Shown: positions 1 through 7,802 of the stretch, piece by piece
How positions within the stretch are numbered: position 1 is the first letter of the stretch
Layout of the letters: each line of letters opens with the position of its first letter
Notes under the pieces: generated by a model
What the model saw: the letters and a program-made list of their open reading frames with translations, nothing else
Told to the model about the DNA's origin: nothing
The model's database searches: none
Translations under genes and position numbers: made by a program
Source of the DNA: Clostridia bacterium
GTDB lineage: Bacteria; Bacillota_A; Clostridia; Oscillospirales; Acutalibacteraceae
Assembly: GCA_024699005.1 (NCBI GenBank)
Contig: JAILQN010000339.1
Span: forward strand, 1-7,802
Reading direction: 5' to 3'
Length of the DNA stretch: 7,802 nucleotides

Positions 1-242
1 TATTTCTCGCCGTCGATCTTGACCTCGGTGCCCGAATACTTGGAGAGGATGACCTTGTCGCCCTCGTCCAGTTCCATGATAACGTCCTTACCGTCCACGA
101 TGCCGCCGGGGCCCACCGCGATAACTTCCGCTATCTGCGGCTTCTCCTGCGCGGAAGAGGAAAGGATGATGCCGCCCTTGGACTTCTCCTCAGCCTCCAG
201 AAACTTGAGAACGATCTTGTCGCCTAAAGGTTTGAGATTCAT
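1..242 (-). CDS. groES: Co-chaperonin GroES, 5' part (C-terminus beyond window)
   Basis: GroES forms the heptameric lid of the GroEL folding chamber in the cytoplasm. Read on the minus strand from the ATG at 242-240, 80 codons are visible, beginning MNLKPLGDKIVLK. They include the mobile-loop region (EAEEKSKGGIIL, about residues 16-27), the EVIAVGPG strand (39-46) and the GDKVILSKYSGTEVKIDGE segment (61-79), all typical of the Cpn10 family. GroES is normally about 94 residues, so only some 14 C-terminal residues lie outside the window. The start is fixed by a clean AGGAGG (complement of 250-255) 7 bases upstream. A CIRCE operator and promoter lie directly upstream, so HrcA heat-shock control is expected. 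groEL would be expected downstream, off the left edge. No anomaly is seen. Confidence 0.97.
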   Translation of the reverse strand, partial: MNLKPLGDKIVLKFLEAEEKSKGGIILSSSAQEKPQIAEVIAVGPGGIVDGKDVIMELDEGDKVILSKYSGTEVKIDGEK

Positions 243-249
243 TTGATTG

Positions 250-255
250 CCTCCT
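250..255 (-). promoter_or_regulatory. Ribosome binding site of groES
   Basis: CCTCCT on the plus strand reads AGGAGG on the minus strand, 7 bases before the groES ATG. It confirms that start codon. Confidence 0.9.
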
Positions 256-280
256 GTATGTATTGTCTTTGTAAACTGTT

Positions 281-307
281 TTAGCACTCGCACCTCTTGA
301 GTGCTAA
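281..307 (-). promoter_or_regulatory. CIRCE operator (HrcA binding site)
   Basis: The sequence is a perfect CIRCE inverted repeat, TTAGCACTC-N9-GAGTGCTAA, with both 9-base arms exact. In Firmicutes HrcA binds CIRCE and represses groESL (and often dnaK) until heat stress depletes active HrcA. The site begins at about the expected transcription start of the groES promoter, where bound repressor would block initiation. hrcA itself is not in the window. Confidence 0.97.
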
Positions 308-311
308 ATCT

Positions 312-339
312 ATTTTAATCCGTTTTCCGAAAATGTCAA
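312..339 (-). promoter_or_regulatory. Sigma-A-type promoter of groES
   Basis: On the minus strand a consensus TTGACA (-35, plus-strand 334-339) is followed after 16 bases by TAAAAT (-10, plus-strand 312-317). The predicted start of transcription falls at about 305, inside CIRCE. A long T/A-rich tract upstream (about 341-376) could act as an UP element. Confidence 0.85.
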
Positions 340-385
340 TACTTTTTTTATTTTTTTCACAGATTTATTTTTTCGTGTATATTAA

Positions 386-414
386 TTGACATTTGTCTTA
401 TATTCGATTAATAT
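386..414 (+). promoter_or_regulatory. Sigma-A-type promoter of the TetR gene pair
   Basis: TTGACA (386-391) is separated by 17 bases from TAATAT (409-414), close to an ideal housekeeping promoter. It diverges from the groES promoter, with the two -35 boxes about 46 bp apart in an AT-rich spacer. A GTTACAATT half-site (422-430) sits at the predicted transcription start and may be an operator. Confidence 0.8.
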
Positions 415-473
415 TGATTACGTTACAATTATCGTGTTGTGTTTCTTTTCCGCAATGAAAGAGAGGTGTCCCT

Positions 474-1082
474 ATGGCAAAATCCGAAAGGAAAGAGGAT
501 CTGCGGGTCAAACGCACCAACAGGATGCTGAACGAGGCGATCTTTGATATGCTCAAGACAAGAAGCATAAACAAGATCTCCGTCGTCGATCTGTGCGAGG
601 CCGCAAAAATCCACAGAGCGACCTTCTACAAGCATTATAAGGATAAAGAAGGTTTTATAGAGCATATCATCTCCATGCAGGTCGATAAGCTCTACAACGA
701 GGCGAAAAGCCGCATCATGACCGACGATCCCACCGAGTACGTCCGGGTCATCGCGGACGTCACGATAGACTTTGCCGCCAGGAACAAAAACCTGATCCTG
801 GCGAATTCCGGATCCAGCGAGGGCGCCGGGCTCATGGGGATACTCGCTTCCGTACTCTCCCGCGAACTGAAATACCAGATCAGAAAGGCTGCCGGCGACT
901 CCGCCGACGACAAGTACCTGGACGTTGTATCCCACTACCTCGCGGGCGGCTTTATTTATCTCCTCGGCTGGTGGTTATCGAACGATACGGGCATAACCAA
1001 ACCCGAGCTTGTCGAGCGCATAGTCCGGTTGGTCCTTCCGAACAACAATTTTGAAGAATATTATAAAAACGATAATGCATAA
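474..1082 (+). CDS. TetR/AcrR-family transcriptional regulator (first of a tandem pair)
   Basis: This 202-residue protein has the TetR architecture. An N-terminal helix-turn-helix spans about residues 15-60, with the recognition-helix signature HRATFYKHYKDK at 47-58. The ligand/dimer domain is all-helical and ends in HYLAGGFIYLLGWWLS and a LVERIVRLVLP helix. The ATG at 474 is supported by GAGAGGTG at 461-468. The stop codon TAA (1080-1082) is part of TAAGGAG, the ribosome binding site of the next gene, so the two are almost certainly co-translated. That next gene is a paralogue sharing the HRATFY, HYxAGG, WWLS and LVERI motifs. Ligand and targets cannot be read from the sequence. The strong upstream promoter and a candidate half-site suggest autoregulation. 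Its position divergent to groES need not imply a heat-shock role, because CIRCE already explains groES control. Confidence 0.9.
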   Translation: MAKSERKEDLRVKRTNRMLNEAIFDMLKTRSINKISVVDLCEAAKIHRATFYKHYKDKEGFIEHIISMQVDKLYNEAKSRIMTDDPTEYVRVIADVTIDFAARNKNLILANSGSSEGAGLMGILASVLSRELKYQIRKAAGDSADDKYLDVVSHYLAGGFIYLLGWWLSNDTGITKPELVERIVRLVLPNNNFEEYYKNDNA

Positions 1083-1086
1083 GGAG
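1081..1086 (+). promoter_or_regulatory. Ribosome binding site overlapping the upstream stop codon
   Basis: AAGGAG shares its first two bases with the TAA stop (1080-1082) of the first TetR gene and lies 9 bases before the ATG of the second. This arrangement favours translational coupling of the pair. Confidence 0.8.
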
Positions 1087-1095
1087 TAACCCACA

Positions 1096-1683
1096 ATGAA
1101 AGAAGACAAACACATCGACACGCGAATCCTCCGGACCTACGAGCTGCTGACAGAGGCTTTCTTCCGGCTTGCGGATACCAAAAGCATAGATTCCATCAGG
1201 ATAAGCGAGATATGCGACGCCGCCATGGTGCACAGAGCGACCTTCTACAACCATTTCAACGACAAAGACGATTTTATCAATTTCGTAATCGCGTCCACAT
1301 TAAAAAAGACCTACGACAAAAGCCTTAAGGAAGCTGAGACGGACGACAGCAGATCCTTCGGCGAGATCCTGCTGTACAACCTGATAAGCTTTGCCGAGTT
1401 GCACCGCAGTCTGGTACTCGACACCACCGCCGGAAACGGCGGTCTGGTACACGACAGGCTGTATGACTTTTTCCTGGATCAGCTCGCCTCCAAGGTAGTC
1501 CCGAATATAGAGAATTTAGAGAACAAACAACAGTTTGAATCTGCGTTCTGCCATTACATAGCAGGCGGCTCACTTTCGCTCATCAGATGGTGGCTCTCCG
1601 GAGGGTACGATTACAGCACCAAGGAGAACCTGGTGGAAAGGATAAAGCTCGTTCTCAATACGCTTCTGGCCGTTGACAGATAG
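1096..1683 (+). CDS. TetR/AcrR-family transcriptional regulator (second of a tandem pair)
   Basis: This 195-residue protein has an N-terminal TetR helix-turn-helix with signature HRATFYNHFNDKDDF (about residues 46-60). Its helical C-terminal domain contains HYIAGGSLSLIRWWLSGG and a LVERIKLVL helix. It is clearly paralogous to the gene just upstream in both the DNA-binding and C-terminal domains. The two genes share a 20-bp identical DNA stretch across the recognition helix (612-631 and 1231-1250). The central ligand-binding helices differ much more, so the two may bind related DNA but sense different ligands, or form a heterodimer (inference). The start follows AAGGAG with 9-base spacing. A strong hairpin terminator follows about 30 bases after the stop, so the pair forms a complete two-gene operon. 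Confidence 0.9.
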   Translation: MKEDKHIDTRILRTYELLTEAFFRLADTKSIDSIRISEICDAAMVHRATFYNHFNDKDDFINFVIASTLKKTYDKSLKEAETDDSRSFGEILLYNLISFAELHRSLVLDTTAGNGGLVHDRLYDFFLDQLASKVVPNIENLENKQQFESAFCHYIAGGSLSLIRWWLSGGYDYSTKENLVERIKLVLNTLLAVDR

Positions 1684-1710
1684 TTTTTTAGATTGATTTA
1701 AGTTAAGTGC

Positions 1711-1763
1711 AATAAAATGACCCCGCAGCTGCCCTTACGGCTCTGCGGGATCCGCATTTTATT
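1711..1763. terminator. Rho-independent-type terminator after the TetR pair
   Basis: This is a nested hairpin. The outer stem is AATAAAATG (1711-1719) with CATTTTATT (1755-1763). The middle stem is CCCGCAG (1722-1728) with CTGCGGG (1743-1749). The inner stem is GCC (1731-1733) with GGC (1739-1741), closing a 5-base loop. The A-rich and T-rich outer arms flanking a GC core could work in either direction. It insulates the TetR operon from the CdaR-like gene. Confidence 0.85.
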
Positions 1764-1764
1764 G

Positions 1765-1780
1765 GTTACAATTTTGTAAC
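1765..1780. promoter_or_regulatory. Palindromic candidate operator GTTACAA-TT-TTGTAAC
   Basis: This perfect 7-bp inverted repeat with a 2-bp centre sits just after the terminator and upstream of the CdaR-like gene. The same GTTACAATT half occurs at 422-430, at the transcription start of the TetR operon. A looser copy (GTTACA, then TTGTTG) lies at 1830-1846. The size and symmetry suit a dimeric regulator. Which protein binds it is not shown. The rest of 1764-1893 is AT-rich with no gene visible. Confidence 0.45.
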
Positions 1781-1893
1781 TATATATTGTATACCGATTG
1801 CTTTTTAACACAGTTTTGTCGCATATTTTGTTACATATTTTTGTTGAGTCGTTATTTTAGACAAGGCAATATATCCTTTTTTGTGAAAAATGC

Positions 1894-1922
1894 TTGATTT
1901 TTTATGATTCATATGATAGAAT
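1894..1922 (+). promoter_or_regulatory. Candidate promoter of the CdaR-like gene
   Basis: TTGATT (1894-1899) lies 17 bases from TAGAAT (1917-1922). Transcription would begin near 1929, giving a leader of about 28 bases before the ATG at 1957. This also argues against translation from the TTG at 1894. Confidence 0.55.
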
Positions 1923-1956
1923 GATGAAAATCAATCATTATGACGGAGGGGTCAGG

Positions 1957-3045
1957 ATGTCAGACAAATTATTCCAGAGCGTTATTTTTCAGATGAAGGA
2001 TTCTGTCGGCGGCACGCTCGGCATCATAGACGAGAGCGGCGCAGTCATCGCCTGCAGCGATCTTACCAAAATCGGAGAATCGTTGGATAAAGCCGTCGCC
2101 GCCGCGGTATTCGCGGCTAACGATGCCTACGCTACCGACAAATACACCTTCAGGACCTTCGGCACTCCGGTCCATCCGGAATACGCCGTATTCGTGGAAG
2201 GCGCGGACGATACTGCCGTCAGACTCGCGCAGGTCCTGGCTGTATCCGTCACGTCCATCAAGCAGTATTATGACGAAAAGTACGACCGTGCGAATTTTGT
2301 CAAGAACATCATGCTTGACAATATCCTGCCCGGGGACATCAGCGTCAAAGCGCGCGAGCTGCACTTCCCCGCAGACGCTTATTACGTGGTATTCCTTATA
2401 AGGATCGTCGGCCGCGACAACACCGCCACTTACGACGTTATCGCAAAGCTCTTCCCGGACAAGGCAAAGGATTTCGTCATCAATATCAACGACACCGATA
2501 TCGCCCTTGTCAAAGAGGTCAGGGAGTCCGTTGAGCGCACCGACCTTGAAAAGCTCGCCATGTCCGTGGCGGATTCTCTCGGACCGGACTATTACACCCA
2601 CACCCTTGTAGGTATCGGCACCGCAGTCAGCGGTCTGAAGCAGCTCGCAAAATCATTCAAAGAGGCGCGTGTCGCGCTCGAAGTCGGCAAAGTATTCGAC
2701 ACCGAAAAGACGATCATCAGCTACGAGAACCTCGGCATAGCCAGGCTTATCTATCAGCTTCCCGGCGCTCTCTGCGATATGTTCCTGCGGGAAGTGTTCC
2801 GCAAGGGCTCCATTGACTCCCTCGACGCCGAGACGCTGTTTACGATCCAGAAGTTCTTCGAAAACAACCTCAACGTATCCGAGACATCCAGAAAGCTGTT
2901 CGTACACAGGAATACCCTTGTTTACAGGCTTGAGAAGATCAGGAAACTGACCGGGCTTGACCTGCGCGAATTTGACGACGCGATAGTTTTCAAAGTAGCG
3001 CTCATGGTCAAGAAATATCTTGAATCCAACCCGACAAAATATTAA
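1957..3045 (+). CDS. CdaR/PucR-type transcriptional regulator
   Basis: This 362-residue cytoplasmic regulator resembles the CdaR sugar-diacid regulator family in layout. The N-terminal region (about 1-110, GTLGIIDESGAVIACSD) looks like a small-molecule recognition domain. A central degenerate GGDEF-like region (about 130-260) contains GIGTAVSGLKQLAKSFKEAR. The C-terminal PucR-type helix-turn-helix spans about 300-355, with NVSETSRKLFVHRNTLVYRLEKI at 306-328. The ligand is unknown; CdaR of E. coli senses diacids such as glycerate, but that cannot be transferred here. The ATG at 1957 is preferred because GGAGG (1945-1949) precedes it by 7 bases. An in-frame TTG at 1894 would add 21 residues but overlaps the likely promoter. 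ftsE starts 50 bases downstream on the same strand, so read-through into the division genes is possible despite an intervening hairpin. Confidence 0.88.
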   Translation: MSDKLFQSVIFQMKDSVGGTLGIIDESGAVIACSDLTKIGESLDKAVAAAVFAANDAYATDKYTFRTFGTPVHPEYAVFVEGADDTAVRLAQVLAVSVTSIKQYYDEKYDRANFVKNIMLDNILPGDISVKARELHFPADAYYVVFLIRIVGRDNTATYDVIAKLFPDKAKDFVININDTDIALVKEVRESVERTDLEKLAMSVADSLGPDYYTHTLVGIGTAVSGLKQLAKSFKEARVALEVGKVFDTEKTIISYENLGIARLIYQLPGALCDMFLREVFRKGSIDSLDAETLFTIQKFFENNLNVSETSRKLFVHRNTLVYRLEKIRKLTGLDLREFDDAIVFKVALMVKKYLESNPTKY

Positions 3046-3048
3046 TTA
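3020..3048 (+). promoter_or_regulatory. Weak candidate promoter for ftsE
   Basis: TTGAAT (3020-3025), a 17-base gap and TAATTA (3043-3048) overlap the end of the CdaR-like gene. A transcript from here would carry the 3059-3078 hairpin in its leader. The match to consensus is modest. Confidence 0.3.
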
Positions 3049-3058
3049 CAGCGCTTAA

Positions 3059-3078
3059 TCCGCCGGCCCCCCGGCGGA
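3059..3078. other. GC-rich hairpin between the CdaR-like gene and ftsE
   Basis: TCCGCCGG (3059-3066) pairs with CCGGCGGA (3071-3078) around a CCCC loop, giving a perfect 8-bp stem. No T-run follows, so it is a poor intrinsic terminator. It could be a partial terminator, an RNA stabiliser or a translation control element, since it ends 17 bases before the ftsE ATG. Confidence 0.6.
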
Positions 3079-3095
3079 ACAACTGTTTAAACATC

Positions 3096-4259
3096 ATGGT
3101 AGAATTCAAAGGAGTAACAAAGGTCTACAACGGCGAGTTCGTAGCCCTGCGAAACATCAACCTGAAGATCAACGACGGTGAATTCGTATTTGTCGTCGGC
3201 GCTTCCGGCGCGGGCAAAAGCACCTTCCTCAAGCTGATAATGCGCGAGGAGGTCCCCACCCGCGGCGATATCATAATAAACGGCTTTGATCTGAACCGGA
3301 TCAAAAAGCGCCACATCCCCTATTTCAGGCGCACGCTGGGCATAGTGTTCCAGGATTTCAGGCTGATCCCCAACATGAACGTTTACGACAACGTCGCATT
3401 CGCTCTGCGGGTCACAGGCGCAAAAGAAAGGGAGATACGCCAGCGCGTCACCCACTCTCTGGGAATGGTCGGGCTTATGCAGAAGGCAAAATCCATGCCG
3501 CATGAGCTGTCCGGCGGCGAGCAGCAGCGCGTCGCCATAGCCCGCGCTCTCGTCAATAACGCAGAGATCATCATAGCGGACGAGCCTACCGGCAACGTCG
3601 ACCCGCAGATGTCCATCGAGATCACTCAGCTGCTGGACAATATCAATTACGAGAAGCACGCCACGGTCATCATGGTCACCCACGCACACGATCTGGTGCG
3701 CAAATTCGATCACCGCATAGTCGCCCTCAACAACGGACGGATAGCGGCGGACGGTTTTGACAAGAACGTCATTCTGCCCACGGTGGACGAGACCGCGCAC
3801 GAGACAGTCGGTTATTTTGAGCAGCCCGGCACGGCAGGAGACGTAGACGACTTCATTTTCAACTACGGCAGAGAAGAAACAGCCAACCGTTCGTTTGTCA
3901 TTCCGGCAGACGGCAAAGTCGCGTCTGCTAAAACCGCCGGCGCGGCAGTTCCGGCCCCAGGCCCCAGGGTTCCGGGTCCCAATCCGGTGCCGGCGGAAAG
4001 ATCCCAAAGCGCAGCCGGGCCGAGATTCCGTACGGAATCCCCCGCCGGCAGGCTGCGCCGTCAGCAGGCGGCAGAGAGAGCGGAGAGTGCAGAGCACAGA
4101 GCGGAGACACCGTCCCCCGCACCTCAGAATCCAACGCTCAACGCTCAGAACTCAAAGCCCAAAACCGATCTCCCGCCCGATACAGGTTCCTTCACGTTCA
4201 ATTACGGAGGCGTGAACAAAGACAGCTCCGGACCGAATGGAGGTGACTCCGATGGCTGA
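3096..4259 (+). CDS. ftsE: Cell-division ABC transporter ATPase FtsE with long C-terminal tail
   Basis: FtsE is the cytoplasmic ATPase that drives FtsX to activate a peptidoglycan hydrolase. All ABC motifs are present: Walker A GASGAGKST (35-43), Q-loop VFQDF (Q86), signature LSGGEQQR (138-145), Walker B IIIADEP (158-164), D-loop GNVDP and switch histidine H196. The ATPase part ends near residue 230, the usual full length of FtsE. About 155 extra residues follow. The motif FIFNYG (253-258) opens a Pro/Ala/Arg/Glu-rich disordered linker, and FTFNYG (366-371) closes it near the C-terminus. The linker DNA contains three 7-bp tandem arrays. The start matches the family (MVEFKGVTKVY), but no Shine-Dalgarno sequence is visible. 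The gene overlaps ftsX by 8 bases. Identity as FtsE is firm from the ATPase core and the ftsX neighbour; the role of the tail is unknown. Confidence 0.95.
   Translation: MVEFKGVTKVYNGEFVALRNINLKINDGEFVFVVGASGAGKSTFLKLIMREEVPTRGDIIINGFDLNRIKKRHIPYFRRTLGIVFQDFRLIPNMNVYDNVAFALRVTGAKEREIRQRVTHSLGMVGLMQKAKSMPHELSGGEQQRVAIARALVNNAEIIIADEPTGNVDPQMSIEITQLLDNINYEKHATVIMVTHAHDLVRKFDHRIVALNNGRIAADGFDKNVILPTVDETAHETVGYFEQPGTAGDVDDFIFNYGREETANRSFVIPADGKVASAKTAGAAVPAPGPRVPGPNPVPAERSQSAAGPRFRTESPAGRLRRQQAAERAESAEHRAETPSPAPQNPTLNAQNSKPKTDLPPDTGSFTFNYGGVNKDSSGPNGGDSDG
3953..3987. repeat. Heptanucleotide array 1 inside the ftsE tail
   Basis: Five consecutive 7-base units occur, the first two identical (GGCCCCA) and the rest diverged (for example GGGTTCC, GGGTCCC). 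They encode part of the Pro/Gly-rich linker (about residues 286-298). The period of 7 runs across codon boundaries, so it is not a codon-level repeat. Confidence 0.65.
4024..4039. repeat. Perfect 16-bp palindrome inside ftsE
   Basis: GATTCCGTACGGAATC is fully self-complementary and lies between the heptanucleotide arrays in the linker-coding DNA. It could be the core of an inserted element, a protein-binding site or chance. Confidence 0.6.
4077..4111. repeat. Heptanucleotide array 2 inside the ftsE tail
   Basis: Five 7-base units of the form AGAGNNN occur. AGAGCGG appears twice, with AGAGTGC and AGAGCAC between, and the last unit is diverged (AGACACC). They encode the AERAESAEHRAET stretch of the linker. 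Confidence 0.7.
4123..4164. repeat. Heptanucleotide array 3 inside the ftsE tail
   Basis: Six 7-base units close to CTCAANG occur; CTCAGAA appears twice, and CTCAACG and CTCAAAG once each. They encode the PQNPTLNAQNSKPKT stretch just before the terminal FTFNYG motif. Read on the minus strand the units end in TGAG, similar in style to the TCAG-ending units in the ftsX-M23 spacer. Confidence 0.7.
4239..4246 (+). promoter_or_regulatory. Ribosome binding site of ftsX, inside ftsE
   Basis: GGAGGTGA is a near-perfect anti-16S match, 5 bases before the ATG at 4252. It decides that start over the in-frame ATG at 4237, which it overlaps. Confidence 0.85.
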
Positions 4260-5211
4260 CAAAGCTGCGGCCCGCGCGCGCAAAAAACGGATACGCGAGC
4301 GCAAGGGCAGATTCAACGGTTCGTATCTCACCAAAGAGGGATTCAGGAACATACGCATACACAGGCTTATGAGCGTGGCTTCAGTCGCGGTAATGATGTC
4401 CTGTCTTCTGCTGGTCGGCGGCGCGTTCCTTATCTACGTCAATATACAGACAGTTATCGACAGAGTCGGCGAACAGAACGTGATCATGGTCTTTATAGAC
4501 GACAACGCCACCGAGGCACAGGAGGCAAAGCTCGCTGAAAACATACGCAACACGGCGAACGTCTCGGACTGCGTATTCGTATCGCGCGACGATTCCTACA
4601 GCAGCATTCTCTCTTCGATGGGCGACTCTGCGGACATCATGGAGAACGTCGACTCCAGCTTCCTGCCGGATGCGTACAAGGTCACCATAAGCGATATGAC
4701 CGCCTTCAAGGCGACCGTGGATACGATCAGCGGTTATGAAAACGTCCTGACCGTACGCGAGAATACGGAACTTGCCGAGAAATTAGCGAGCATACAGAAG
4801 AGCGTAGGGCTTATAAGCCTGTGCATAGCCGTTATCCTGCTTATCGTTTCGCTGTTCATAATAGCGAACACCGTCAGGATAACAATGTTCACCCGCAGCC
4901 TGGAGATATCCATAATGAAGGCCGTCGGCGCGACCAACCGCTTCATCAGGTGGCCGTTCCTGGTCGAGGGCTTCGTGCTGGGCATAATCTCTTCGATAAT
5001 AGCGTTTGCCGTTGTCTTCCTGCTGTATTACGGCGCAGATCAGTTCTTCGGCAGTCTTTTCGATTTGCTCGGCAGCAAAATGGTACCGTTCGAGGACGTC
5101 ACGGCTCCCCTGCTGTTCACGTTCATGGGTATGGGTATCATCACGGGCGTTTTAGGCAGCGCAATTTCGCTCAACAGGTATCTGAAGGATCACGGTAAAG
5201 TGGTGGAATAA
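4252..5211 (+). CDS. ftsX: Cell-division ABC transporter permease FtsX
   Basis: FtsX is the membrane partner of FtsE; its extracellular loop binds and activates a coiled-coil hydrolase. The 319-residue protein has the family topology. A very basic cytoplasmic N-terminus (about 1-38) is followed by TM1 (about 41-63) and an extracellular domain (about 64-182, starting NIQTVIDRVGEQNVIMVFIDD). TM2 lies at about 185-207. A cytoplasmic coupling segment (LEISIMKAVGATNRFIRWPFLVEG, about 217-240) precedes TM3 (about 241-262) and TM4 (about 287-308). The ATG at 4252 has an excellent ribosome binding site and overlaps the ftsE stop by 8 bases, indicating translational coupling. Length and motifs are normal. 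The likely partner is the M23 protein encoded next. Confidence 0.96.
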   Translation: MADKAAARARKKRIRERKGRFNGSYLTKEGFRNIRIHRLMSVASVAVMMSCLLLVGGAFLIYVNIQTVIDRVGEQNVIMVFIDDNATEAQEAKLAENIRNTANVSDCVFVSRDDSYSSILSSMGDSADIMENVDSSFLPDAYKVTISDMTAFKATVDTISGYENVLTVRENTELAEKLASIQKSVGLISLCIAVILLIVSLFIIANTVRITMFTRSLEISIMKAVGATNRFIRWPFLVEGFVLGIISSIIAFAVVFLLYYGADQFFGSLFDLLGSKMVPFEDVTAPLLFTFMGMGIITGVLGSAISLNRYLKDHGKVVE

Positions 5212-5214
5212 CAG

Positions 5215-5358
5215 TTTTCAGGTTTCGGGGATCAGGGTTCAGTAAAAATCAAGCAGATTTCAACGTTTCGGTTTTATAAAATCTCAGTCGAAAGCATAAT
5301 TATTTTACTGTCGAATACTGACCGCTGCCCCCTGATCACTGACCACCGGTCCCGATCC
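5215..5358. repeat. Foldback element with facing heptanucleotide arrays, ftsX-M23 spacer
   Basis: The left array (5215-5242) has four 7-base units ending TCAG or similar (GGATCAG, GGTTCAG). The right array (5317-5358) has six 7-base units (ACTGACC twice, CCTGATC and diverged copies). Read on the minus strand the right units also end in TCAG (TGGTCAG, TGATCAG), so the arrays face each other. Exact inverted arms are GATCAGGG (5230-5237) with CCCTGATC (5330-5337), CAGTAAAA (5240-5247) with TTTTACTG (5303-5310) and AGATTT (5255-5260) with AAATCT (5279-5284), around an AT-rich core. The element fills most of the 181-bp spacer. No convincing separate promoter was seen here. Confidence 0.7.
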
Positions 5359-5375
5359 TTCACACAAACTCCCGC

Positions 5376-5383
5376 AAAGGAGG
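5376..5383 (+). promoter_or_regulatory. Ribosome binding site of the M23 gene
   Basis: AAAGGAGG lies 9 bases before the ATG at 5393, immediately after the foldback element. Confidence 0.85.
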
Positions 5384-5392
5384 AACAAAAAA

Positions 5393-6763
5393 ATGAAATT
5401 TCCCACAAAGCGCCTTGCCGCGGTGATCGTATCGTTCGTCATGCTGCTCGGCATAATGATAATCGCGCCGGCGGAAGACAGCGAGATCGACAGCATCAAG
5501 GACAAAATATCCGCCGCGCAGCAGAAGATCGACAGTGCGGAGGAGAAGCTTGACAGCCTTGAGGGCGACATCTCCAAAACCAAGGAATATATCTCCGAAC
5601 TCGATTCGCAGATCAGCGCCTACCAGTCTCAGATAGACGCTTACTCGGAACAGATCGAGGAATACGAAGCCCAGACGAAGGAGCTGACCGCCGAGCGCAA
5701 ACAGCTGGAATCCGATATTGTCGGGCTCAACAACAAGATCGACAGCTACAACAAAAGGATCGATTACCTCAACACCCAGATCGACGGCAAGATGGATCAG
5801 CTCAAGGAGATACTCCGGGCAAACCTCCTTACCGGCGAGACCTCGGCTCTCGAGATCCTGCTGACCAGCGAAGATTTTGCTGAATACCTGACCAAGACCC
5901 AGATGCTGTCAAGCATTGCCGACAGGCAGGACTCCATCATCGAAGGGATCAACGGGGATATCGATAAGGTCAACACCGTAATTCTGCAGGTACAGGAGAG
6001 CAAGGAGCAGGTGGAGACCTACAAGGAAGAGGTCGCCGCAAAGATCGAGAACATCCAGGTCCTGAGCGAGCAGATAGCAGACAGTCAGGCAGAGGTAGAG
6101 GCAAAACGCGCAAAGGTGCAGGAGAAAGTCGACGAGTCCAATTCCTATCTCTCTCAGCTCAACAGTCAGAGCGAGGAGTATCAGGATATGATAACCGGCT
6201 ACGAAACCGACATCGCAGAATTCGAGAGCGAGATCTCGTCCATACTGCAGAGGCGCGCCGCGGAGCGCGAGGCTGCCCAGCAGCAGTCAAGCTCCGGCGA
6301 CGGCGGATCGTCCGGTGATTCGGGTTCATCTTCTTCGGGCGGCGGTTACACCGGCACCGGCGACTTCGGCGCTCCCCTGTCCATAAGCGGACAGTACGTA
6401 TCCTCCGGTTATTATTACAGGACAAACCCCGTCACCGGCGCGGAAGAGCACCACGGCGGCCTTGATATAGCCGCTCCGAACATCTACGGTGCAAGCATCT
6501 ACGCCTGCGACAGCGGCGAGGTCGCCACCGCGACCTACCACTACAGCTGGGGCAACTACGTGCTTATCGACCACGGCAACGGCTACGCCACTCTCTACGC
6601 TCACATGAGCTCCATAGCCGTGTCGGAGGGGCAGTCGGTATCCAAGGGCCAGGTCATAGGCTACGTCGGTTCCACGGGCTACGCCACCGGTCCGCATCTG
6701 CATATAGAAGTGTGGATCAACGGCTCCAGGACCGATCCCTCGCCGTATATACCGGTGGGATAG
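5393..6763 (+). CDS. Secreted coiled-coil M23 (LytM-type) peptidoglycan endopeptidase, likely FtsEX-controlled
   Basis: This 456-residue protein has a Sec signal peptide (about 1-27, MKFPTKRLAAVIVSFVMLLG, probable cut after APA). A long coiled coil follows (about 30-298; EEKLDSLEGDISKTKEYISEL and similar), then a Gly/Ser linker (about 300-322). The C-terminal M23 domain spans about 325-452. The metal and catalytic set is complete: H354 and D358 in HGGLD, H404 in YAHMS, and H435 and H437 in HLHIEV. It should therefore cut peptide cross-bridges in peptidoglycan. The coiled-coil-plus-LytM layout matches EnvC, which is catalytically dead. The coiled coil and FtsEX context also resemble PcsB and CwlO of Gram-positives, which use different enzyme domains. 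The location after ftsEX suggests FtsX binds the coiled coil and relieves autoinhibition (inference). The gene is flanked on both sides by heptanucleotide foldback elements. Confidence 0.92.
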   Translation: MKFPTKRLAAVIVSFVMLLGIMIIAPAEDSEIDSIKDKISAAQQKIDSAEEKLDSLEGDISKTKEYISELDSQISAYQSQIDAYSEQIEEYEAQTKELTAERKQLESDIVGLNNKIDSYNKRIDYLNTQIDGKMDQLKEILRANLLTGETSALEILLTSEDFAEYLTKTQMLSSIADRQDSIIEGINGDIDKVNTVILQVQESKEQVETYKEEVAAKIENIQVLSEQIADSQAEVEAKRAKVQEKVDESNSYLSQLNSQSEEYQDMITGYETDIAEFESEISSILQRRAAEREAAQQQSSSGDGGSSGDSGSSSSGGGYTGTGDFGAPLSISGQYVSSGYYYRTNPVTGAEEHHGGLDIAAPNIYGASIYACDSGEVATATYHYSWGNYVLIDHGNGYATLYAHMSSIAVSEGQSVSKGQVIGYVGSTGYATGPHLHIEVWINGSRTDPSPYIPVG

Positions 6764-6874
6764 AGTTTTGAGTTTTACGTTTTGCGTTTTGTGCTTATAA
6801 GGTTTTTTGATATATATAGAATAAACCTTCCGTGCACGACACGCAACACGCAACACGCAAAGCGCAACACGCAC
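6763..6874. repeat. Foldback element with facing heptanucleotide arrays, M23-S41 spacer
   Basis: The left array (6763-6790) is four 7-base units, GAGTTTT twice and then ACGTTTT and GCGTTTT; it begins on the last base of the M23 stop codon. The right array (6840-6874) is five units, CACGCAA three times, then AGCGCAA and CACGCAC. On the minus strand the right array reads GCGTGTT, so the arrays face each other. Exact inner arms are GTGC (6791-6794) with GCAC (6834-6837) and AAGGTTT (6799-6805) with AAACCTT (6823-6829), around an AT loop. The element fills the whole spacer and ends one base before the next ATG. Confidence 0.75.
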
Positions 6875-6875
6875 A

Positions 6876-7793
6876 ATGAATAAAAAAATCTCTTTAGGTC
6901 TGACATTCACGCTTATAGCGGCGGCAGTCGTAATTTCGGCTGCCGCGGCGGTTTTTTTGTCGATCAGGGTATTCAACAAAATAATAATCGATCTTCCCGC
7001 GCGTGAGGCGGCATACAAATTCCTGACCGAAGCGGACAACATAATCCGCACGAATTACTACGGCGACGTGGATCCGGACATCGCGGGCGAGGGGCAGGTG
7101 AGCGGATATCTGAAGGCGCTTCCTCTCGGCACGAACTACTATATGAGTCCGGACGAATATTCGGAGTACAAGCGCGATCTGTCCGCCTCCGGCTCCGTCA
7201 CCTGCGAGACCTACGCCTCCGCAGGATATATAAAAATCCATTCTTTCACAGACAACACCGCGAAGGAGTTCAGACACGCCGTAGATGAGTTGACCGGCAA
7301 AAACGCCACCGTACTCATCATCGACCTGAGAGGCGTGCAGAGCATCAATACCGAAGGGGCTGCCGGGGTGATCGACGAGATCGCGCCTATCGCATCCGCC
7401 GGCACGGGGGTCATCGCTTCGGCAGTCAACAGGGACGGCAAGACTATCACGTCCTTCTCGTCCGACGCGGACAGTATATCCCTGCCCATGGCGGTACTGA
7501 TAAACGGCAGGACCGGCGGCGCGGCGGAGCTTGTGGCGTGCGACGTGCGCGACTTCGGCAAAGGGATAATCGTGGGCGAAAAGTCCATGGGCAGCGGCGG
7601 TTATCAGCAGATATTCGAACTGTCCGGCGGCGGCGCCATCACACTGACCACAGGCGTCATCATCCCCTATTCCTCCGACACCTACGACGGCGAGGGCGTC
7701 ACGCCCGATTTCACCGTCAAGAACCAGGGCGAGGACACGGGGAACCTTTCGGACGACGAGCAGTTCATGAAGGCGTATACCGAGGTATCTTAG
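6876..7793 (+). CDS. S41-like (C-terminal processing protease family) membrane protein, apparently catalytically dead
   Basis: This 305-residue protein has one N-terminal membrane anchor (about 7-30) and then an extracellular S41-type fold. Family landmarks are YYMSPDEYSEY (about 88-98), GYIKIHSF (117-124), VLIIDLRG, VLINGRTGGAAELVA (207-221), VGEKSMGSGGYQ (233-244) and GEGVTPDF. Active CtpA-type enzymes have a serine in a TASASE motif and a lysine in GKG. Here these positions are G215 (TGGAAE) and S240 (GSG), so the Ser-Lys dyad is missing. The PDZ domain usually found after the SPxEY motif is absent; only 21 residues separate Y95 from G117. It may bind or tether a partner of the FtsEX-M23 system (inference). 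The start has no Shine-Dalgarno sequence; a 7-bp repeat array abuts it. The reading frame is otherwise intact. Confidence 0.85.
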   Translation: MNKKISLGLTFTLIAAAVVISAAAAVFLSIRVFNKIIIDLPAREAAYKFLTEADNIIRTNYYGDVDPDIAGEGQVSGYLKALPLGTNYYMSPDEYSEYKRDLSASGSVTCETYASAGYIKIHSFTDNTAKEFRHAVDELTGKNATVLIIDLRGVQSINTEGAAGVIDEIAPIASAGTGVIASAVNRDGKTITSFSSDADSISLPMAVLINGRTGGAAELVACDVRDFGKGIIVGEKSMGSGGYQQIFELSGGGAITLTTGVIIPYSSDTYDGEGVTPDFTVKNQGEDTGNLSDDEQFMKAYTEVS

Positions 7794-7802
7794 TTTTTAG
7801 TG

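Follow-up and report, generated by a model that had tools for sequence, protein, structure and literature searches.

The DNA analysed here (the window) is a stretch of 7,802 nucleotides from a Clostridia bacterium of the family Acutalibacteraceae, probably of gut origin (GenBank assembly GCA_024699005.1, contig JAILQN010000339.1, positions 1 to 7,802 of the forward strand). It carries ftsE, followed by ftsX (4252..5211, + strand; matches to the FtsX_ECD and FtsX profiles), a gene for an M23 peptidase with a coiled coil that is PcsB/EnvC-like (5393..6763, + strand; Peptidase_M23 match) and a gene for a CtpA-like S41 peptidase (6876..7793, + strand; Peptidase_S41 match). The ftsX/M23 gap and the M23/S41 gap, both flanked by cell-wall genes, each hold a short element, here called elements 1 and 2, in which two facing arrays of 7-nt units (heptads) surround an AT-rich core. 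We think it fairly probable (about 0.6) that both spacers hold foldback insertions of one class, short, non-coding and dispersed, which resemble miniature inverted-repeat transposable elements (MITEs) and whose heptads are homogenised within each element.

With its bounds refined from the sequence, element 1 measures 135 bp (5213-5347) and begins 2 nt past the ftsX stop codon (5209-5211). Its left arm (5213..5243, + strand) reads AGTTTTC AGGTTTC GGGGATC AGGGTTC AGT; its right arm (5317..5347, − strand) reads, as reverse complement, GGTGGTC AGTGATC AGGGGGC AGCGGTC AGT. The AT-rich core between them (5244..5316, no strand) has short stems, in which CAGTAAAA at 5240-5247, a half that extends into the left arm, pairs with TTTTACTG at 5303-5310. 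Element 2, refined in the same way, measures 108 bp (6764-6871). It begins immediately past the M23 stop codon (6761-6763), and its right arm stops 4 nt short of the S41 start codon (6876). The left arm (6764..6794, + strand) is AGTTTTG AGTTTTA CGTTTTG CGTTTTG TGC and the right arm (6841..6871, − strand), as reverse complement, CGTGTTG CGCTTTG CGTGTTG CGTGTTG CGT; the core (6795..6840, no strand) contains the stem AAGGTTT/AAACCTT inside GTGC/GCAC. All four arms can be written in register as 31 nt, that is, four heptads plus 3 nt. An earlier inspection of the window by a model that saw only the letters and a list of open reading frames (ORFs), the sequence-only reading, had given the words of the two spacers as NGRTCAG and GCGTKTT. 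These are rotations of AGNGRTC and CGTKTTG, respectively, and the short exact stems that it saw in the cores are present.

We measured periodicity by a score that sums the best run in the left half and the best run in the right half of a spacer, with dinucleotide shuffles as controls. The period-7 score was 22 at 5212-5360 and 37 at 6763-6875. None of 2000 shuffles equalled either value (shuffle mean ≈ 6 for both; maximum 15 and 14, respectively), and periods 4-6 and 8-11 scored 4-9 in both spacers. The period-7 arrays of the sequence-only reading are therefore real. Five period-7 segments with a score of at least 12 were found in the whole window and none in 100 shuffled windows; the right arm of element 1, taken alone, falls under this threshold. 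Facing complementarity of the two halves was 20 for 6763-6875 (0/600 shuffles) and 11 for 5212-5360 (6/600). Thus, the facing arrangement proposed for both spacers is strong in element 2, and the inverted nature of element 1 is modest on its own.

Two further period-7 arrays, which the earlier inspection had overlooked, lie at 4076..4107 and 4132..4166 (+ strand), within the 3′ extension of the ftsE coding sequence. Their period-7 score was 27 (0/2000 shuffles) and their facing score 9. Because they are weak as facing arms (19/600), we do not count them as an element. Past about residue 260, the ftsE tail of the window does not align with the tails at L001, L023 and L025. These three loci, of genomes G001, G002 and G003 in a single genus with 11 species, are the nearest relatives at the window locus.

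A scan of relatives for FtsX gave 25 loci, with clear heptad segments at L001, L023 and L016; L001 and L023 have one facing pair each, with complementary words. In longer samples, contig 1 of G001 (180 kb) contained 14 period-7 segments; eight other periods gave 0-4 segments, and five shuffles gave none. Contig 11 of G006 (160 kb) contained 32, compared to 0-5 for other periods and 0-1 in shuffles. Both samples begin at base 1 and were previously known to contain matches; the stretches of G001, G002, G005 and G006 were partly picked by earlier matches, so that their densities are not unbiased. An excess of period 7 beyond the window, on which the sequence-only reading depended, is thus found in relatives. 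In the genus of G001, segments occurred in sampled stretches of six species (G001, G002, G310, G311, G312 and G314), and none was seen in samples of 12-161 kb from G003, G313, G315, G316 and G317. Beyond this genus, G005 and G006 were rich in heptad segments, and G007 to G016 yielded one doubtful segment (G009) in 20-61 kb sampled per genome. Several words occur within one genome: AATGCAA, AATAAAG, AATGAAT and TTATCTC types in G006, and AATTAGG, AATTAGC and AATTAAT in G314. The constant period with a changing word, first noticed in the two window spacers, therefore holds for relatives as well. At L117 9224-9367 (G005) we observed a longer array with a higher-order period of 28 bp made of four heptads.

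Within the phylum of G003, the single-arm pattern (AATKNNN)4AAT matched 43 of 398 genomes, with dozens of scattered matches in some (for example G493 and G544). A control pattern of pitch 8 matched 9 of the 398, 8 of these at a single place. In the AATK counts, overlapping registers multiply the matches of one array and one place is countable on both strands; the AATK pattern read backwards also matches in some genomes (for example G672, G377 and G579). A pattern made from the word of element 1 matched 3 of 290 genomes of the order, including arrays of AGTTTTC in G230 and AGTTGTC in G042. At L231 of G042, facing arms flank a hairpin of the GGGCTTCGCCC type.

To describe the class, we assembled an arm set of 193 segments, reduced to 165 by removal of duplicates, from which segments dominated by one base had been excluded beforehand. 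The mode of arm length was 31 bp (35 of 165 segments), and 86 of the 165 measured 30-33 bp. The sharpest length peak among periods 6, 9, 12 and 15 was 9 of 71, at 33 for period 9. Of 54 close pairs, 46 were better inverted, 7 were better direct and one was a tie. The mean inverted score was 15.5 with an arm's own partner and 9.6 with shuffled partners; the mean direct score was 6.4. A complementary partner was present within 300 bp for 112 of the 165 arms. Forty facing pairs spanned 80-302 bp (median 141); one of them (L090 13887-14188) links the arms of two adjacent copies. The two spacers of the window would belong to a class that is found in many Clostridia, and the period-7 grammar is a property of that class and not a coincidence. 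Facing pairs are common among related Clostridia and single arms are spread through the phylum, contrary to the earlier remark that no Firmicute counterpart was known.

The words of the class have a common frame. The motif A[AG]T[GT] was contained in 33 of 50 distinct cyclic words, compared to a mean of 15.1 and a maximum of 27 in 1000 letter shuffles (0/1000), the words not being independent since many are of common descent and some loci were fetched by element similarity. The word set omits loci fetched by ART patterns as well as L241-L248. The earlier description of the two window spacers as alike in design but not in sequence is therefore half right: the design is common to both, and the words of relatives do share an ART-K frame. 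The units of the window fit this frame more loosely than those of AT-rich relatives, being partly CGT in element 2 and also AGG, GGG and AGC in element 1. Despite a coding fraction of 0.82, 34 of 37 facing pairs were intergenic by a simple ORF call, in a list to which element 1 of the window was added by hand. The ftsE-tail arrays of the window, which are coding, are an exception to the spacer location.

The clearest evidence for copying came from G001. With the L001 element as a 151-bp query, we obtained 94 matches at E ≤ 1 in this genome. At least 46 of them had E ≤ 1.2e-9, and 42 of these were at least 100 bases long. This count is a lower bound, as scores were computed for 40 of 111 first-look candidates. 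Aligned with one another, 23 copies showed terminal heptads and core hairpins in common, and flanks that were mostly unlike; the flank exceptions were one tandem triplication and copies that stand behind a common hairpin string. The triplication, at L090 13700-14400, repeats a whole heptad-armed element together with ≈ 50 bp of flank at a step of 189 bp. In G002, a 125-bp element is identical at L112 14190-14314, L176 12-136, L177 2-126 and L178 2-126. All four copies lie at contig ends, so that the elements probably break short-read assemblies and counts in metagenome-assembled genomes (MAGs) may be too low. The sequence-only reading had favoured a process that makes or selects heptads rather than ordinary copying; both the G001 matches and the identical G002 copies show plain copying, on which word replacement is overlaid.

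Presence of the elements is lineage-specific in at least one case. The L001 element of G001 sits between a uvrC-like and a gph-like gene (both named by eye from the encoded sequence), and the same junction is short and heptad-free in five sister species (G002, G003, G310, G314 and G317). This absence would reflect insertion in G001 rather than repeated loss in the sisters. Copies at many sites, together with lineage-specific presence, point to mobility. At the window locus itself, where the nearest relatives are more distant than in the G001 sister comparison, the ftsX and M23 genes overlap in L001, L023 and L025, compared to a distance of 181 bp in the window, and the M23-S41 spacer is 14-21 nt, compared to 112 bp in the window. 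A purine-rich, Shine–Dalgarno-like stretch precedes the S41 start in these three loci, whereas the window has heptads there and 6841-6876 contains no recognisable Shine–Dalgarno sequence.

These data bear on the possibility that the heptads are simple repeats born in place by polymerase slippage, with facing pairs arising through local inversion or hairpin-mediated copying and no mobile element being involved. In many bacteria, heptamers are reported to outnumber other long simple repeats, with slippage proposed as the explanation (Mrazek 2007, as related in the parts of PMC4692102 and PMC4679880 covered here). Single arms (53 of 165) and the long pure arrays at L199 and L200 also fit such an origin. 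The dozens of same-core matches at scattered places argue strongly against slippage as the sole cause, and the favoured arm length of 31 bp, the orthologous spacer of five sisters without the element and the identical 125-bp copies of G002 speak against it as well. We therefore regard an origin by slippage alone as unlikely.

The elements could instead be cis-acting RNA structures (attenuators, or processing or stability hairpins) selected operon by operon, with heptads as an inexpensive means of making long imperfect helices. RNA folding of 6763-6875 was good (z −3.8 on the + strand and −3.2 on the − strand), as was that of the L001 element (z −4.9 on either strand), and the core hairpins of the G001 copies show matched changes (GAAGCCCTGCGGGCTT, GAAGCGCTTCGCGCTT and GAAGCACTTCGTGCTT). 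In 22 of these copies the covariation score was 0.053, compared to 0.029 when shuffled (0/500), and there were 9 cells with both-sided changes, compared to 3.4 (0/500), all from core hairpins 2 and 3. Two stricter measures stayed within the shuffle range, namely pairs with both-sided change (2 compared to 2.3; 403/500) and further pair types (10 compared to 9.1; 177/500), so that covariation is weak. Element 1 folded weakly as RNA (z −1.65; 10 of 200 shuffles equally good). Folding with DNA parameters was about equal (z −3.6 for element 2 and −2.3 for element 1) and RNA is thus not singled out. The proposed ability to fold back is supported by these values for element 2, and to a lesser degree for element 1. 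Rfam gave no match at the gathering cut-off in the window and none at E ≤ 1 for L001, L023 or the window, and no terminator was predicted inside either window element. Occupation of a site in a single species, with the orthologous spacer of five sisters lacking the element, is also hard to reconcile with selection for a function in each operon, which we consider improbable. One promoter-like match lies in the core of element 1; the region has three, compared to 1.3 expected.

Cores and words do not always travel together. Among 27 matches to the G001 core in 400 kb, the left arm was of the AAAGTGC type in 18, AATGTAC in 2 and AATGAAT in 1; five others followed strings of other hairpins and one was unclear. 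The arm closes with AAT or AGT before the TCGG of the core; the ART is then mostly followed by TTCGG or GTCGG, with a base or two variable. The identical G002 element has AATTCGT arms, yet contains TCAAAAGGCGAAGCCTTTTCC, which is part of the G001 core. Conversely, a single arm type in G006 surrounds differing middles, and some of these contain nested palindromes or another pair of heptad arrays. One core with several arms and one arm with several middles indicate that exchange or re-making affects arms and cores separately. Two side observations concern such mosaics. At L084 10027-10456 and L086 9600-9810, small palindromes spaced by GTGAAG/TGAAAT replace the left arm at the G001 core, forming a hairpin-mosaic repeat. 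At L101 8970-9190 and L097 16200-16370 (G006), palindromes like those of repetitive extragenic palindromic (REP) sequences lie close to heptad arms.

In the mechanism that we favour, an element would consist of two facing arms of ≈ 31 bp (four heptads plus 3 nt, the unit mostly ART-K-NNN) around a core, often with small hairpins. Such elements would multiply as copies within a genome, landing mostly in spacers, and would be moved by an enzyme supplied in trans. Heptads are more alike within than between elements, which requires a local process. Events of both kinds, in-register slippage and hairpin-templated repair between facing arms, are well established. Slippage along the array, combined with template switching in the form of hairpin-templated repair between the facing arms, may keep the heptads of both arms alike; the word would then drift as a block, with pitch and arm length retained. 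Of all the facts, this mechanism accounts least for the favoured arm length.

On a more radical view, the arms would be rewritten rather than inherited as terminal inverted repeats: a machine stepping by 7 nucleotides, either cellular or element-borne, would restore every arm to a length of four units and three further bases, with ART-K fixed and NNN free, and would re-arm a core with a new word. If this were true, a single kind of process would have produced the heptad arrays of Clostridia and those of Xanthomonas, cyanobacteria and Beggiatoaceae. We consider this rewriting improbable.

Several results weigh against the interpretation as mobile, locally homogenised elements. Of the 165 arms, 53 have no local partner. 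A BLAST search of the window elements against 295 genomes (at most two candidates scored per genome) gave no whole-element homologue; short fragments alone were found, in 7 and 10 genomes at E ≤ 0.01. The absence from sisters is documented in detail for one element. A second L001 spacer is short and heptad-free in G002, G311 and G314, and G317 has a longer, unrelated spacer there. The arm helix of the 22 G001 copies showed no both-sided change, so that correction from arm to arm is not demonstrated. A general preference for stop codons was not seen: of 29 flanking stops, 9 lay within 15 nt, and many flanking starts were equally near. Target-site duplication in 37 elements, tested for k = 3-9 with element ends uncertain by a few bases, showed no clear excess over controls. 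The counts were 28 compared to a control mean of 23.4 at k = 3, 16 compared to 10.9 at k = 4 (equal to the control maximum), 6 compared to 4.8 at k = 5, and 0 at k = 7-9. Scanning 4 kb either way from partnerless arms, with one inward pair examined, revealed no gene between matching arms. Finally, the genome of the copy family, G001, gave no match to Y1_Tnp, DDE_Tnp_1 or RVT_1, although MAGs may lack repeated insertion sequences (IS).

As a candidate for an autonomous copy we considered the arms at 8970 and 10808 of L101 (G006), 1.84 kb apart; these belong to two separate elements around ordinary genes. Y1_Tnp, RVT_1 and DDE_Tnp_1 were rejected as partner genes because their occurrence does not follow the element-rich genomes. 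Four fetched RVT_1 loci had no heptad arms. One of four DDE_1 loci (L247, G006) had a period-7 segment ≈ 0.9 kb from the match, which we take as the general density of such segments in G006.

The search for a mover also addressed the idea that the elements are related to REP sequences or bacterial interspersed mosaic elements (BIMEs), moved by a REP-associated tyrosine transposase (RAYT) or another Y1 transposase of the IS200/IS605 type. Hairpin mosaics, location in spacers, many copies and the REP-like palindromes nested in some elements are reminiscent of such systems, and the element-rich G006 has 8 matches to Y1_Tnp. The Y1 family (PF01797) gave no match in the element-rich genomes G001, G002 and G005, and it is present in G007 and G010, which had no period-7 segment in the 61 and 37 kb sampled. 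There were no heptad arms beside ten fetched Y1 loci, some of which lie at contig ends. This origin is disfavoured, and we consider it very improbable.

A constant pitch and a favoured number of units would also be expected if each heptad were the site of a protein that steps by 7 nt, for example a single-strand-binding protein such as a cold-shock protein. A cold-shock protein is reported to occupy heptamers with one protein per unit (remark on CspB in the part of PMC4679880 covered here), and the combination of a constant ART-K with a free NNN resembles a recognition part plus filler. A binding site alone would, however, not force a like filler across the units and in the facing arm, as is seen from the partner scores (15.5 compared to 9.6). 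Binding arrays are hence a quite improbable explanation.

Short arrays of 7-nt units are known from cyanobacteria as short tandemly repeated repetitive (STRR) sequences. The likeness to the Clostridia elements lies in these short arrays; the difference is that the parts of the sources covered give no description of STRRs as the facing arms of an element. Heptanucleotide repeats of Calothrix are mentioned in PMC4692102. That paper (Rehm et al. 2015), in the parts covered, describes GGGAATC heptamer repeats in Xanthomonas, with 186 and 183 arrays in which four units are commonest, and with 70 and 75 convergent pairs able to form stem–loops. Facing heptad arrays are thus already in print, and the Clostridia elements are not a new category. 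The likeness extends to degenerate, dispersed heptads that lie mostly in spacers, to the four units and to the facing pairs (PMC4692102). Xanthomonas differs in that there is one word type per genome (GGGANTN), that the repeats are of the G-quadruplex type and that they lie near the upstream gene; a conserved core, a copy family or an empty site is not reported in the parts of PMC4692102 covered. By comparison, the Clostridia elements have many words, structured cores, copy families and lineage-specific presence, with no clear preference for an upstream gene, and a GGG run in every unit, as a G-quadruplex of the Xanthomonas type would need, is present in none of the four window arms. The functional role of the Xanthomonas heptads was still to be elucidated according to the same parts of the 2015 paper.

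Direct repeats of TAACTGA, intergenic heptads of 2-6 units, occur in Beggiatoaceae, cyanobacteria and some Bacteroidetes (PMC4679880, in part). The opposite strand of TAACTGA, after rotation, gives AGTTATC, an ART-K-NNN word like the Clostridia units. In contrast to the Clostridia elements, these are direct arrays of one word, with one indirect repeat reported and no facing arms with a core in the part of PMC4679880 covered. Bacterial MITEs are dispersed, non-coding and 70-300 bp long, with terminal inverted repeats of 15-30 bp (PMC3733652, in part). The elements described here are likewise short, non-coding and dispersed, with terminal inverted repeats, the evidence for copying coming from relatives only. 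They are unlike MITEs in that these repeats are tandem heptads of variable word, and that no clear target duplication or parent IS was found. Foldback/Galileo transposons of Drosophila, as described in the part of PMC3573991 covered, share internally repetitive terminal inverted repeats; unlike the Clostridia elements, they are eukaryotic and carry transposase-coding sequence of the P-element kind. A search of openly licensed papers, covering titles and the starts of abstracts, gave no description of such elements for Clostridia.

Heptads have been called over-represented in bacteria, and the reason is not agreed upon. In Clostridia they would form the termini of dispersed elements that favour one arm length, have a common unit frame and occur in copy families, with an empty site and with cores that have been re-armed, and the question "why seven?" thereby becomes testable. 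The elements would also illustrate the remodelling of short spacers, of start sites and of gene overlaps in an operon (ftsEX, M23 peptidase and S41 peptidase), and their combination of traits suggests that small mobile DNA may be copied here in an unusual manner.

The remaining genes of the window precede ftsE. A groES-like frame, recognised by eye, lies on the minus strand at the window start and is followed by two TetR-type genes; a PucR-type regulator stands between these and ftsE (profile scan of the window proteins and ORF list). The sequences TTAGCACTC (281-289) and GAGTGCTAA (299-307) precede the groES-like frame within 281-307, and this pair resembles in form a controlling inverted repeat of chaperone expression (CIRCE) operator.

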